Shown: positions 9,445 through 63,764 of the stretch, one piece after another
Layout: each line of letters begins with the position of its first letter
Position numbering within the stretch: the stretch's first letter is position 1
DNA from: Lachnospiraceae bacterium
Lineage (GTDB): Bacteria > Bacillota > Clostridia > Lachnospirales > Lachnospiraceae
Direction: 5' to 3'
NCBI GenBank assembly: GCA_015057405.1
Contig: SVEK01000011.1
Span: 1-64,000 of the forward strand
Length of the DNA: 64,000 nt
Notes under the pieces: generated by a model
The model's input: the letters and a program-made list of their open reading frames with translations, nothing else
The model's database searches: none
What the model was told of the DNA's origin: nothing
Translations under genes and position numbers: made by a program

Positions 9445-9540
9445 TGATTACACCCTCCTGCAATGTGTCCATATACAAATCACCATCATTTGCATATCCT
9501 TTGAACTTACTTATGTTAATAATATTAGTATTATACTATT

Positions 9541-9676
9541 CCTCTCCGCCGCAGTGCGTTCCCGCGGAGCGCTTTTGCTTACTAGGACAATTTCAAAGAA
9601 ATTTCCTAGTAAGGAACAAAGAATGTCGTCTGCGGCATTCTACGCCGGCGGCAGGTTGTTTTAGCAACATCTGCTC
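9541..9676. repeat. Four-hairpin dispersed repeat, copy A (permuted)
   Basis: Shares long blocks with the copies at 54.4 and 62.7 kb: CTCCGCCGCAGTGCGTTCCC, then TTACTAGGACAATTTC-aaa-GAAATTTCCTAGTAA (long stem), then GGAACAAAGAATGTCG and a GTTG-ttttag-CAAC type hairpin. The order here is hairpin 3, 4, 1, 2, a circular permutation of the 1-2-3-4 order elsewhere. In hairpin 1, GAATGTCG pairs with CGGCATTC through a wobble. It sits between the anti-sigma stop and the surface gene start. Confidence 0.85.
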
Positions 9677-9685
9677 TTTCGCGTA

Positions 9686-31705: not shown

Positions 31706-31808
31706 TTGCCGGTTCGTCCCTCGTTTTTCAGGTTTCAGCCTGCTGATTCGTTCCTTGTTTTTCAGCTTTCAGCTTGCCGGTTCGTTCCTTGTTTTTCAGG
31801 TTCCAGCC
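31706..31808. repeat. Tandem repeat, three units of 33-35 bp
   Basis: Three consecutive units of the form TTGCCGGTTCGTTCCTTGTT + TTTCAGGTTCCAGCC: 31706-31740, 31741-31773 and 31774-31808, with a few substitutions each. They lie between the small ORF start and the flavin reductase stop, both on the minus strand. No coding frame is supported. Confidence 0.75.
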
Positions 31809-31815
31809 TGCAAAT

Positions 31816-49232: not shown

Positions 49233-49883
49233 ATGGATAATAACAATAACACCAATATACTTTGGAATAACAAATGGATCTGGACAGCCATACTATTTGT
49301 CGGCGCTATGATACTCTCTGCATGTAAGTTTGTAGAACTGCCGGACGGAGGTGCAATAACATATTGCAGTCTGCTGCTCCTATGGCTTATTACCTACTTT
49401 TTCGGTTTTAAGCACGGACTCGTCTTCTCGATATTATTTGGTTTTGCCAAATTCTTTATTACATATGCCACCAATGAATACATCAATTACGAAGTATGGG
49501 CATTAATACTTGAATATCCCCTGGCAAGCGGTGTGTTCTGCCTTGGCGGACTTATAAGAACCAAAAAAACAACTCAAGCGACCGACAAAATCACAATATA
49601 CAACATTCCGAAGGAATCCGTTAAACTAACAGGGGGTTATCTTATCGGAGTATTCGGCCAATTTATATTTTACGTAATTTCTGCCGTTTTATTTTATCCG
49701 CCGAACAAACAAGGTTTCCTGCCTAATCTGTGGTATTGTATAGTTTATGATGGAAGCTATCTGCTGATAGAAGCTGTATTTACTGTAATTCTTATCAACA
49801 TTCCGCCGGTTACGGAGGCAATTAATTATGTAAAATATGTGGCGACACATGATAACCTAACCTCTAACACAGATTATTTCTGA
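49233..49883 (+). CDS. ThiT-like energy-coupling factor substrate-binding subunit
   Basis: 216 residues from the ATG at 49233 with GGGGAG five bases upstream. The track start lies inside the previous gene. About six membrane spans. The segment ELPDGGAITYCSLLLLWLITYFFGFKHG, then LILEYPLAS and late YDGSYLLIEA, closely follow the pattern of thiamine transporter ThiT. It would use a shared EcfAAT module, which is not in the window. No TPP riboswitch is seen upstream. Coupling to the GNAT-like gene is suggested by the 41-base gap. Substrate identity is inferred. Confidence 0.72.
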   Translation: MDNNNNTNILWNNKWIWTAILFVGAMILSACKFVELPDGGAITYCSLLLLWLITYFFGFKHGLVFSILFGFAKFFITYATNEYINYEVWALILEYPLASGVFCLGGLIRTKKTTQATDKITIYNIPKESVKLTGGYLIGVFGQFIFYVISAVLFYPPNKQGFLPNLWYCIVYDGSYLLIEAVFTVILINIPPVTEAINYVKYVATHDNLTSNTDYF

Positions 49884-49966
49884 CACAGCCCGCTTCCGGT
49901 ACAACCTGCTTCTGACATAAACCGCTTTCGGCACAGCCTGCTTCTGACATAAACCGGCTTCTTGTA
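49884..49966. repeat. Tandem repeat between convergent genes
   Basis: Two 32-bp units, CGCTTCCGGTACAACC + TGCTTCTGACATAAAC and CGCTTTCGGCACAGCC + TGCTTCTGACATAAAC, followed by a partial third. They lie directly after the ThiT-like stop and before the ABC exporter stop on the other strand. Confidence 0.78.
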
Positions 49967-54367: not shown

Positions 54368-54510
54368 GGAACATAGAATCTCGCTTGCGAGATTCTCCGC
54401 CTGCGGCGGGTTGCTTTAGCAACATCTACATCTCCGCCGCAGTGCGATCCTTAGCGGAGCGTTTTTATTATATAGGAGAGTTCTTTTCGAGAACTTTCCT
54501 ATATAATAAA
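54368..54510. repeat. Four-hairpin dispersed repeat, copy B
   Basis: GGAACATAGAATCTCGC-tt-GCGAGATTCT (hairpin 1), GTTGC-tttA-GCAAC (2), CTCCGC...GCGGAG (3) and TTATTATATAGGAGAGTTCT / AGAACTTTCCTATATAATAA (4). Hairpins 1 and 4 differ in sequence from the 62.7 kb copies on both arms while staying paired. It lies between the broken regulator and the Na/Pi gene. Confidence 0.85.
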
Positions 54511-54536
54511 GGGGTTGTCGAAAAAAACAACCCCTT
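54509..54536 (-). terminator. Hairpin after the Na/Pi cotransporter gene
   Basis: Stem AAGGGGTTGT / ACAACCCCTT with an 8-base A/T loop, 30 bases past the stop and abutting repeat copy B. The U-run in the needed direction is weak. Confidence 0.45.
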
Positions 54537-54566: not shown

Positions 54567-56366
54567 CTAAAATTTTATAGTTTCAAGCGGCGCAAGATAC
54601 TGTTCTTTTCTGTTTTCATGCTCAGCATTATACATTTCATCACCATATGCATGAAGTTCCTGAAGATAAAGATGATGATTTTTCATAATTTCTTCATTGT
54701 TCTTACTAAGCATAAGCATTGCGATGCTTGAACACTGATCCGCAGCACGTTCAAAATATGTAAGCATGTCCATGAAAATCAAACCTGATTTTACCGAGCA
54801 TATTCCCTGACAAAGACGTGCCGTATGTCTATTTTTAAGAAGTAGTACCATATCATCAATAACTTCCTCTAAAGGCTCAATACGACGTGCAATATAATCA
54901 TTTTCATTTTCAAGTGCTTCAACTGTAAGTCTGAGTATTTCCTGAACAGCATCACCAAGAATATCCATCTCTTTTTGTGCACTCTCTGAGAACACAAGAT
55001 CAGCATCACTCATTTTCTTTGCCATCTCATCAAAGTTAGTAGCATAATCACCAATTCTTTCAAGGTCTCTTATACACTGCATAAGTATATTATGCTGACG
55101 TTTATCACCTTCCAGTTCAATATTGTCTGATAAAGCAATCAGATAATTATCTGCACAATCTGTAAAGTAATCAAGTTTTTCTTCACCTTCATTTATTTTT
55201 TCAGCTCTTGCCTCATCATACTTCTTAAATTGCTCAAGACTAAGTTCAATATTATCTTTTGCAATTCCTGCCATTGAAACAGCAAATTTTGTCACTTCTC
55301 CGAGAGCAACCGCCGGTGCAATCATTAATTTTTTGTCGAGTGCCAAAAGTTCAGGATACGTAACCTCTTCTTCTATATCATCCTTAACGAATTTACATGC
55401 AATCTTAACAAGTATATTAACAAACGGAATCAACGCAACCGCAGTAATCAAATTAAATATAGTCTGAAAATCCGCTATTGCACCACTATTAGCCGTGCTG
55501 TCCCATAACCCCGGGAAATAACCAAGCTTCTGTATAATAGTCATTGCAATCATAAATGCAATTGTTCCGACCGAATTAAACACTATATGTACAATACCTG
55601 TTCGTTTTGCGTCTTTTGATGAACCGATTGAACAAACGAGTGCTGTTGTTACACAAGTTCCGAGATTAATACCCATGATAATCGGATATACCAAGCTAAA
55701 CGTCATATCACCGGTTGATGACAAAGCCTGAAGTATACCAACCATCGCAGATGAACTTTGCACAATAACCGTAAGTACCAGTCCGACAACAATACCAAGC
55801 AACGGAGCACTACTAAAATATGACAGTACATTTTTAAATGTTTCTGAACCTGATAATGGTTCAACTGCATCCGTCATTGTTATAAGTCCCATAAAGAGAA
55901 TACCAAAACCAAGTGCTATTATTCCTACATTCTTACTTGCTTCCTTCTTCACAAACATTACAAGTATAATACCTATAACCAGCGCAATAGGTGCAAGCGT
56001 ATCAGGTTTGAAAAATGTAAGAATAGACGCTCCTGACGAATCTATATCCATAAGACGGATAAGCTGAGCTGTCACCGTTGTACCGATATTAGCACCCATA
56101 ACAATACTTACAGCCTGTCTAAAGCTAAGAATTCCTGCTCCAATAAGTCCGACCGTTAATACTATGGTTGCCGTAGAACTTTGAATGACTGCCGTTACAA
56201 GAGTACCTGTAAGAACACCCATAATAGTGTTGTGCGTAAGTCTACCAAGAACCTTTTTAAGTGCGTTTCCAGACCCCTGCTTAAGACCATCCCCCATAAT
56301 TTCCATTCCGTAGAGGAACATTGCCAGTCCGCCAAGGAGTTTAATCGTTGTTAAAATAACGTCCAT
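54567..56366 (-). CDS. Na/Pi cotransporter family protein with PhoU domain
   Basis: 599 residues. The N-terminal part (about 1-340) has two repeated membrane modules with the QSSTAT and QSSSAM signatures (TAVIQSSTATIVLTVG; TVIVQSSSAMVGILQAL), typical of Na-dependent phosphate transporters (NptA/YjbB). The C-terminal part (about 370-570) is a helical PhoU-like domain with RIGDYATNFDEMA. It probably moves phosphate across the membrane. GGAG precedes ATG. The broken PhoB-type regulator next door is a possible former controller. Confidence 0.9.
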   Translation of the reverse strand: MDVILTTIKLLGGLAMFLYGMEIMGDGLKQGSGNALKKVLGRLTHNTIMGVLTGTLVTAVIQSSTATIVLTVGLIGAGILSFRQAVSIVMGANIGTTVTAQLIRLMDIDSSGASILTFFKPDTLAPIALVIGIILVMFVKKEASKNVGIIALGFGILFMGLITMTDAVEPLSGSETFKNVLSYFSSAPLLGIVVGLVLTVIVQSSSAMVGILQALSSTGDMTFSLVYPIIMGINLGTCVTTALVCSIGSSKDAKRTGIVHIVFNSVGTIAFMIAMTIIQKLGYFPGLWDSTANSGAIADFQTIFNLITAVALIPFVNILVKIACKFVKDDIEEEVTYPELLALDKKLMIAPAVALGEVTKFAVSMAGIAKDNIELSLEQFKKYDEARAEKINEGEEKLDYFTDCADNYLIALSDNIELEGDKRQHNILMQCIRDLERIGDYATNFDEMAKKMSDADLVFSESAQKEMDILGDAVQEILRLTVEALENENDYIARRIEPLEEVIDDMVLLLKNRHTARLCQGICSVKSGLIFMDMLTYFERAADQCSSIAMLMLSKNNEEIMKNHHLYLQELHAYGDEMYNAEHENRKEQYLAPLETIKF

Positions 56367-62718: not shown

Positions 62719-62851
62719 GGAACAAAGAATGTCGCTTGCGACATTCTCCGCCTGGGTTGGGTTGCGTTAGCAACACTTTCCTCTCCGCCGCAGTGCGTTC
62801 CCGCGGAGCGCTTTCGCTTACTGGGACAATTTCAAAGAAATTTCCTAGTAT
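62719..62851. repeat. Four-hairpin dispersed repeat, copy C1
   Basis: 133-bp unit starting GGAACAAAGAATGTCGC-tt-GCGACATTCT, then GTTGC-gtta-GCAAC, CTCCGC...GCGGAG and a long arm pair TTACTGGGACAATTTC-aaa-GAAATTTCCTAGTA. It is followed head to tail by C2 with only a few substitutions. Confidence 0.9.
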
Positions 62852-62990
62852 GGAACAAAGAATGTCGCTTGCGACATTCTCCGCCTGGGTTGGGTTGCGT
62901 TAGCAACATTTTCCTCTCCGCCGCAGTACGTTCCCGCGGAGCGCTTTCGCTTACTAGGACAATTTCAAAGAAATTTCCTAGTAAGCGAAA
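62852..62990. repeat. Four-hairpin dispersed repeat, copy C2
   Basis: Second 133-bp unit, nearly identical to C1. The last hairpin extends to TTCGCTTACTAGGA ... TCCTAGTAAGCGAA. It ends against the terminator of the thioesterase gene. Together C1, C2 and the terminator account for the gap 62593-63038; the first 125 bases hold only A/T-rich DNA before the GH31 start. Confidence 0.9.
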
Positions 62991-63020
62991 AAAGGAGCCC
63001 GCAAGCGGACTCCTCTTTTC
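62988..63020 (-). terminator. Terminator after the acyl-ACP thioesterase
   Basis: Minus strand AGGAGTCCGC-tt-GCGGGCTCCT (one wobble), followed by TTTTTTCGC. About 20 bases past the stop. Confidence 0.85.
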
Positions 63021-63038
63021 TCAAACACATATATCATT

Positions 63039-63764
63039 TTATCGAATAACAAACTCAACAATAGTTGCAATCTTGTCATCTTCATCCTCAAAAACAACCA
63101 AAACAATCTCTCCATCGACGCAAACTCTTGGTTTGAGTATATTTCCAAGAAAAATCTGTTTCTTATATTCTGCCCTAATTCTGCTAATAGTTTTCTTATC
63201 ACCGCAAACATCTGCAATGTATTCTCTTGCAATATATACATATTGGGCATTATTAACGTGATTGTTCGTATCAAGATAATGAGGTGTAATAACAATGTCA
63301 TCCATCTTATGATAATCCACATCGTCAGGCACTCTTATCTTCTTCCCTATATTGTCTATCTCAATATCGTCATCCAAAAATGCATCCACCATTGACTGAG
63401 GCACTTTTTCAGGTCTCATAGTCTCAGTATTAATAAGCGACCACACCGAATTAGCATTTGCGTACTCCTTCGAGCCATCCTTAGAAAGAATACAAAATGA
63501 CCTACACCCAACAAATCCCTTAAATCTGTACGGATAAGTATCTATTCTAATCTCTTCGCCTATCAGGGGCAATTCTTTTATGTTAATCTGCCATGCTCCA
63601 AGTACCCAGACAATATTATTATCACTCATATACTGAATACTGTATCCCAAATCTTCAGCGTGAAATATTGCTGTATCCTGCAGATAATCTAATAACGCAG
63701 TCTCTGTCAATCTGCCACCCATATCGGTTTCGCTATATCTTACTCTTGTAAAATAACTGTACAT
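63039..63764 (-). CDS. Acyl-ACP thioesterase
   Basis: 241 residues forming two hotdog domains, the bacterial form of plant FatA/FatB. The first domain has RYSETDMGGRLTETALLDYLQD and WVLGAWQINIKELP. The second has the catalytic-type stretch PHYLDTNNHVNNAQYV near residue 170. It releases fatty acids from acyl-ACP and ends chain extension. The ribosome site AAAGGAAG is somewhat far from ATG. Confidence 0.92.
   Translation of the reverse strand: MYSYFTRVRYSETDMGGRLTETALLDYLQDTAIFHAEDLGYSIQYMSDNNIVWVLGAWQINIKELPLIGEEIRIDTYPYRFKGFVGCRSFCILSKDGSKEYANANSVWSLINTETMRPEKVPQSMVDAFLDDDIEIDNIGKKIRVPDDVDYHKMDDIVITPHYLDTNNHVNNAQYVYIAREYIADVCGDKKTISRIRAEYKKQIFLGNILKPRVCVDGEIVLVVFEDEDDKIATIVEFVIR

Follow-up and report, generated by a model that had tools for sequence, protein, structure and literature searches.

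Short structured elements that probably insert behind intrinsic terminators in Lachnospiraceae

Introduction

The 64,000-nucleotide stretch of Lachnospiraceae DNA analysed here (the window) carries, near its end, a tandem pair of multi-hairpin sequences that recurs at two other places, which raises the question of what this element is and how it came to lie where it does. Small interspersed repeats are common in general, and an earlier note on this DNA had described the element as dispersed and intergenic, had taken its compensatory changes to imply selection for structure and had considered movement by a trans-acting enzyme possible. We put at about 0.78 the probability that the copies are short, non-coding, non-autonomous mobile elements that insert one-way, right after the T-run of intrinsic terminators. 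This reading rests on their dispersal, their fixed position and orientation at terminators, their empty sites, the tandem arrays that abut P1 and a conserved five-helix fold, and on these grounds we strongly infer that the element is mobile. It represents a new family of structured, terminator-targeted, non-autonomous elements of Clostridia that no known mobile-element class or enzyme fits.

Results and discussion

Copies of the element in the window

The element is non-coding, measures ∼133–145 bp, consists of several hairpins and lies on the plus strand at three places, all of them intergenic, as had been claimed. At 62 kb two full copies of subfamily A stand in tandem (62719–62851, from Tandem Repeats Finder and nhmmer, and 62852–62990, from nhmmer and with a covariance model score of 129 bits), with a Tandem Repeats Finder period of 133 and a match of 97%, and the P5 end of the first adjoins the P1 hairpin of the second. 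The copy at 54368–54510 (nhmmer; covariance model 136 bits) is full as well and belongs to subfamily B. At 9.5 kb the 3′ half of one copy (9538–9612; part of P2, P4 and P5, from nhmmer and the sequence) is joined directly to the 5′ half of another (9613–9681; P1 to P3, from nhmmer and a covariance model score of 41 bits), so that the count of four copies at three places is correct by both methods if this fusion is taken as one.

In the second copy of the tandem pair P1 is the hairpin at 62859–62880 (pair counts and sequence), P2 spans 62882–62930 around P3 (62894–62907) in the model alignment and is in part mispaired through a GGGTTGG variant, P4 is a small hairpin at 62929–62943 followed by a T-rich stretch, and P5 is the long stem at 62945–62990 (TTTCGCTTACTAGG...CCTAGTAAGCGAAA; sequence and model alignment). 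What had been counted as four hairpins are hairpins indeed, although they comprise five helices because P2 encloses P3. Two parts of this copy resemble terminators: P1 with its T-rich tail on the minus strand and, in the terminator scan, P4 with its T-rich stretch on the plus strand. As single-stranded DNA the 62-kb copy folds with z = –7.6 relative to shuffles.

The earlier note had also placed two copies against terminators or hairpins resembling them, and the copies at 62 and 54 kb do adjoin minus-strand terminator hairpins. The one at 62994–63013 (sequence, ORF list and the general target rule) serves the minus-strand gene 63039–63764, its T-run stops at P5, and it is probably the target of the insertion, lying outside the element itself. 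The other, AGGGGTTGT...ACAACCCCTT at 54510–54536 (sequence and ORF list), belongs to the minus-strand gene 54567–56366 and adjoins P5 of the 54-kb copy. At 9.5 kb P5 is followed by the P1 hairpin of the second fragment instead of a host terminator. Unrelated to the element are the short tandem repeats of the window at 31707–31811 and 49878–49962, whose units measure 34 bp and 32 bp.

Distribution across genomes

The assembly that contains the window (2.83 Mb, 73 contigs) yielded 66 matching pieces in a DNA search, which resolve into ∼45 copies or fragments in unrelated surroundings. Many of these are 97–99% identical, contigs of the assembly end at them, and they fall into two main subfamilies, A (62-kb type) and B (54-kb type), together with mosaics. 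A further observation concerns loci L200, L247, L233, L105 and L284, which hold a second subfamily with P1 AGTGTGCGTC or AGAGTCCGGC and a P2 of the GCGCCGGAGCGCGG type, standing in tandem with the main type and with the junction at the P1 hairpins.

Relatives were found by DNA search in 10 other Lachnospiraceae genomes, and covariance model R1 matches at least 160 of 299 sampled genomes of the family, a lower bound as the best ∼10 candidates of each genome were scored. Nearly all of this sample is one genome per genus, and the element is present in more than half of the sampled Lachnospiraceae genera. The search for further copies that had been proposed as a check, made with nhmmer and the covariance model, thus found them both within this genome and across the family. 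The assignment of the element family to Lachnospiraceae follows from the named matches, which include Blautia wexlerae, Lacrimispora, Eisenbergiella, Anaerobutyricum, [Clostridium] citroniae and a Roseburia plasmid. Among viral contigs the exact element core was not found; phage carriage was considered and rejected, the apparent ‘phage’ matches lying on unverified scaffolds of faecal origin, possibly from bacteria.

Beyond Lachnospiraceae, the weaker matches of a class-wide sample retain the T-run, a P5 with ATAGGAAA/TTTCCTAT and the A-run around a diverged body, and some of them adjoin a terminator-like hairpin. Loci L418–L422 and L424, from other families of the class, likewise combine the same P5, T-run and A-run with a largely different body, and these loci possibly represent a superfamily of different bodies with a common P5 end. 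That such a superfamily extends across Clostridia and is moved by an undescribed enzyme that reads terminators, either as hairpin and T-run or as paused RNA polymerase, is a proposal we make tentatively and would rate somewhat below even odds. If it is true, transcription stop signals would serve as safe landing sites.

Rfam 15 gave no match above the gathering threshold to the element, either in the window or at about 69 loci, in keeping with the earlier note, which had recognised no named family. The literature searched does not describe the element; a structured-RNA survey of human microbiomes (PMC8040213) may include it unnamed in its supplements.

Fold and covariation

Across genera the alignment retains one order of parts, namely an A-rich left end, P1, P2 around P3, P4, a T-run and P5. 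P1 is 9–10 bp long, P2 pairs CGC.CTGCGGCGG with CCGCCGCAG.GCG, and P5 is a long stem whose core ATAGGA/TCCTAT is conserved in most genera. P2 is in part broken in the 62-kb copies, where GGGTTGG stands in place of GCGGCGG, and the same variant with a partly broken P2 occurs in many abundant copies of this genome.

The paired differences between the copies in the window hold up: hairpin 1 reads AGAATGTCGC/GCGACATTCT at 62 kb and AGAATCTCGC/GCGAGATTCT at 54 kb, a G–C to C–G swap, and the fourth hairpin of the original description (P5) has another outer stem at 54 kb and is still paired over at least 20 bp. As the two places represent subfamilies A and B, these differences amount to few events; the statistical support rests on the cross-genus alignments. 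Among 78 diverse copies, changes on both sides occur in 42 of 43 pairs, and 96.2% of cells are paired compared to 83% in shuffles and ≤60% in slid controls; this alignment was fitted to the covariance model, which biases the counts toward structure, and its sequences are related, so that the cells are not independent. A MAFFT alignment of 22 copies that was made without the structure model has both sides changed in 28 of 43 pairs. Supported covariation, the other check that had been proposed, is therefore present.

The earlier note had argued that covariation implies selection. However, template switching can make compensatory changes without selection, and PMC8604942 and PMC8794818 present spacer inversion and arm homogenisation as hallmarks of polymerase template switching between inverted-repeat arms, and state that it also maintains hairpins. 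In two copies of this genome (L028 near 1604–1641 and L035 near 110–150) the P5 loop is inverted, which suggests template switching between the arms, and no helix varies more than P5, which is also the longest palindrome. The covariation thus stands while the step from it to selection was too strong, and part of it may be mutational in origin. The more far-reaching alternative, that most paired changes stem from template switching in palindromes, with the fold as a by-product, bears on the structure alone and is compatible with a mobile element; we consider it possible, if rather doubtful, because the arms of P2 lie ∼25–30 nt apart around P3 and yet in 12 of 12 P2 pairs both sides have changed between genera, while 93% of the cells still pair. 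Changes in P2 are consequently the better evidence for constraint, and, judged from the aligned sequences, its separated arms argue that selection probably acts too. The element family is in this respect a natural test bed for telling selected covariation from template-switch artefacts.

Contact with intrinsic terminators

One copy after another has an unrelated hairpin directly behind the A-run of its P5 end; on the opposite strand this hairpin is an intrinsic terminator whose T-run stops at P5, with the orientation fixed. A strict script requiring A-run plus hairpin accepted 211 of 252 distinct full copies. Consistently, the 50 nt on the P5 side fold with a mean of –16.3 kcal/mol (n = 252), compared to –7.2 on the opposite flank; control positions 250–900 bp away from copies gave –7.3. 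Many of the 41 copies that fail the script do so because the hairpin is a tandem neighbour's P1 or is weak, because the A-run is interrupted or because another insertion is nested there, and some have no hairpin. Some failures have no explanation, such as L082, L106 and L260. The terminators used are those of protein genes, T-box leaders, cobalamin and c-di-GMP-I riboswitches and tRNA genes. In 120 of 149 cases the nearest gene on the P5 side faces the element; on the far side gene orientation follows no matching rule. The contact with terminators was therefore rightly seen in the window, but it is a rule with a fixed orientation rather than an occasional trait, and it is apparently a matter of target specificity.

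Empty sites and tandem arrays

B. wexlerae and its sister genome G369 have the element between the same two genes next to ilvC, and two other genomes, G354 and G332, are empty there, with the first 210 bp of the ilvC end 99.5% and 97% identical, respectively. The empty sites read GTACATATTC-AAAAAATCCCC (G354) and CTTC-AAAAAAAATCCCC (G332), each followed by the terminator hairpin, and the filled site in G369 reads GTACAT-[ACAAGAAAG...CCTATAACAT]-AAAAAATCCCC. This is the one empty site that can be read cleanly on both sides; the single event shows no target-site duplication, although at its left junction empty and filled sites disagree in four bases (ATTC), which may have been lost or have arisen later. 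A second locus filled in B. wexlerae is also empty in G354 and G332, and the T-box terminator of metG carries a copy in this genome and none in G005. The ilvC site and the second locus, as orthologous empty sites in sister species of B. wexlerae, show insertion behind a terminator.

Units within arrays adjoin the P1 hairpin of the next copy, with a period of 133–137 bp. Because P1 and its T-rich tail resemble a minus-strand terminator, every insertion would create a further target, and self-targeting by the terminator rule would account for these arrays, the 62-kb pair included.

The same data bear on the possibility that the element is a cis-acting regulatory or 3′-end-stabilising RNA, kept where termination or mRNA stability benefits, so that adjacency to terminators would reflect function. 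Its deeply conserved, covarying fold, its position beside terminators and the terminator-like P4 and T-run on the plus strand agree with such a role. However, the element lies past the terminator and hence outside the terminated transcript, the neighbouring genes are unrelated and those on the far side have no consistent orientation, and near-identical bodies in unrelated flanks, mosaics, tandem arrays and empty sites indicate insertion. We therefore regard a regulatory RNA as unlikely and retain the mobile element as the preferred reading.

Known systems and candidate enzymes

Group IIC introns, whose target is a terminator stem-loop with a short IBS1 downstream of it (PMC7923331), may be regarded by analogy as a precedent for terminator targeting, as they too enter T-rich sites after the stem-loop of intrinsic terminators. 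Unlike the element, they are self-splicing RNAs that usually carry a reverse-transcriptase gene. That their machinery moves the element in trans would explain the shared type of target, and group-II-like reverse transcriptases are common in Lachnospiraceae. Yet the element is 133–145 nt long, has no match among the Rfam intron models and shows nothing of the intron ribozyme architecture, domain V included, and no reverse transcriptase was detectable in 20 of 69 element-rich genomes, this one among them, or in 61 of 160 element-bearing genomes, absence from fragmented assemblies being weak evidence. With no significant association between enzyme and element (odds ratio 1.47, p = 0.13), reverse transcriptase was rejected as the partner and the group IIC route is very unlikely. 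IS110, whose transposase was not found in 11 of 28 element-rich genomes, was rejected as not universal in carriers.

REPs are described in PMC3733652 as single palindromes of 20–40 bp, most with GTAG or CGTC tags. Together with REPINs and their Y1 enzyme RAYT they resemble the element in being short, palindromic, intergenic, many-copy, non-autonomous and presumably moved in trans, but the element is a five-helix unit with a terminator target and many of its carriers have no Y1 gene. If a Y1 (HUH) transposase moved the element in the manner of REP/RAYT or IS200/IS605, P1 and P5 would be its subterminal hairpins, in agreement with the hairpins near both ends, the lack of terminal inverted repeats and of an observed target duplication, and the one Y1 gene of this genome. 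This is nonetheless very unlikely, since Y1 is not universal and the ends do not match, with no Y1 domain in 7 of 18 element-rich genomes (G215, G280 and G100, which are 97–99% complete, lack it, though loss after spread is possible), none of 26 scanned Y1 loci having element ends around the transposase gene, and a degenerate copy near a Y1 gene in G028 as the sole contact.

DDE-derived MITEs are likewise short non-autonomous repeats dispersed between genes, whereas the element has no terminal inverted repeats, as comparison of its left end (A)GAACAAAG with its right end CCTAGTAA shows, and the clean empty site gives no sign of target duplication. BOX and RUP of pneumococcus and bcr of Bacillus cereus are small interspersed, non-coding repeats of Firmicutes, some with a conserved RNA-like fold; their sequences and folds differ from those of the element and, to our knowledge, they have not been described as terminator-targeted.

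Other candidates were tried and rejected. Two same-strand partial matches 1.5 kb apart in G369, which might have been an autonomous version with an ORF between P5 and P1 halves, are independent copies flanking a transporter-like gene. Likenesses of P5 to a dif/Xer-like site and of the left end to an IS91-like GAAC/CAAG end are superficial, and the left end varies in B. wexlerae. Guide pairing between the T-run of the element and that of the target, suggestive in the copies of this genome, was demoted because the P5 arms covary inside the element elsewhere and because the inner arm, judged from the empty site, belongs to the element.

Proposed mechanism

Together, the cross-genus fold, the near-universal insertion at terminators and the lack of a shared transposase, reverse transcriptase or IS110 enzyme among the hosts point to a mobilisation route outside those known. 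In the mechanism we envisage, a trans-acting protein would recognise the fold, formed by either single-stranded DNA or RNA, and attach the element's P5 end where a hairpin precedes a T-run. What marks this site may be the DNA of the hairpin or else the single-stranded bubble of an RNA polymerase that pauses on the U-tract. P1 of the inserted copy with its T-rich tail would then form the fresh target from which tandem arrays grow. The earlier suggestion of a non-autonomous element moved in trans is in this sense probable; that interpretation was right about a dispersed, intergenic and covarying element, missed terminator contact as the rule and claimed too much for selection. Because terminators are a generic target that spares genes, the machinery could, if identified, serve for harmless insertion. 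The element also affects annotation and assembly of gut Clostridia, as contigs of this genome end there and annotators can take it for a regulatory RNA.

Other elements and a reading frame at P5

A repeat with the end GGTTAGGGTGTCAAAAGG, which follows three copies at contig ends and was considered as a partner, is a separate insertion nested in P5: this different mobile element lies in the 3′ arm of P5 in L300, L302 and L304 (contigs C55, C13 and C9). In Clostridium sp. chh4-2 (L238:1380–1621) an element with a similar end (ATTCGGGTGTCAAAAGG) lies within P5, with an apparent 8-bp duplication CCTATGAT, and P5 thus seems to be a target for other elements. Finally, in G369 (L405:1060–1160) an EAL-domain-like ORF takes its C-terminus and stop codon from the P5 end of a degenerate copy, so that the element can shape protein ends.
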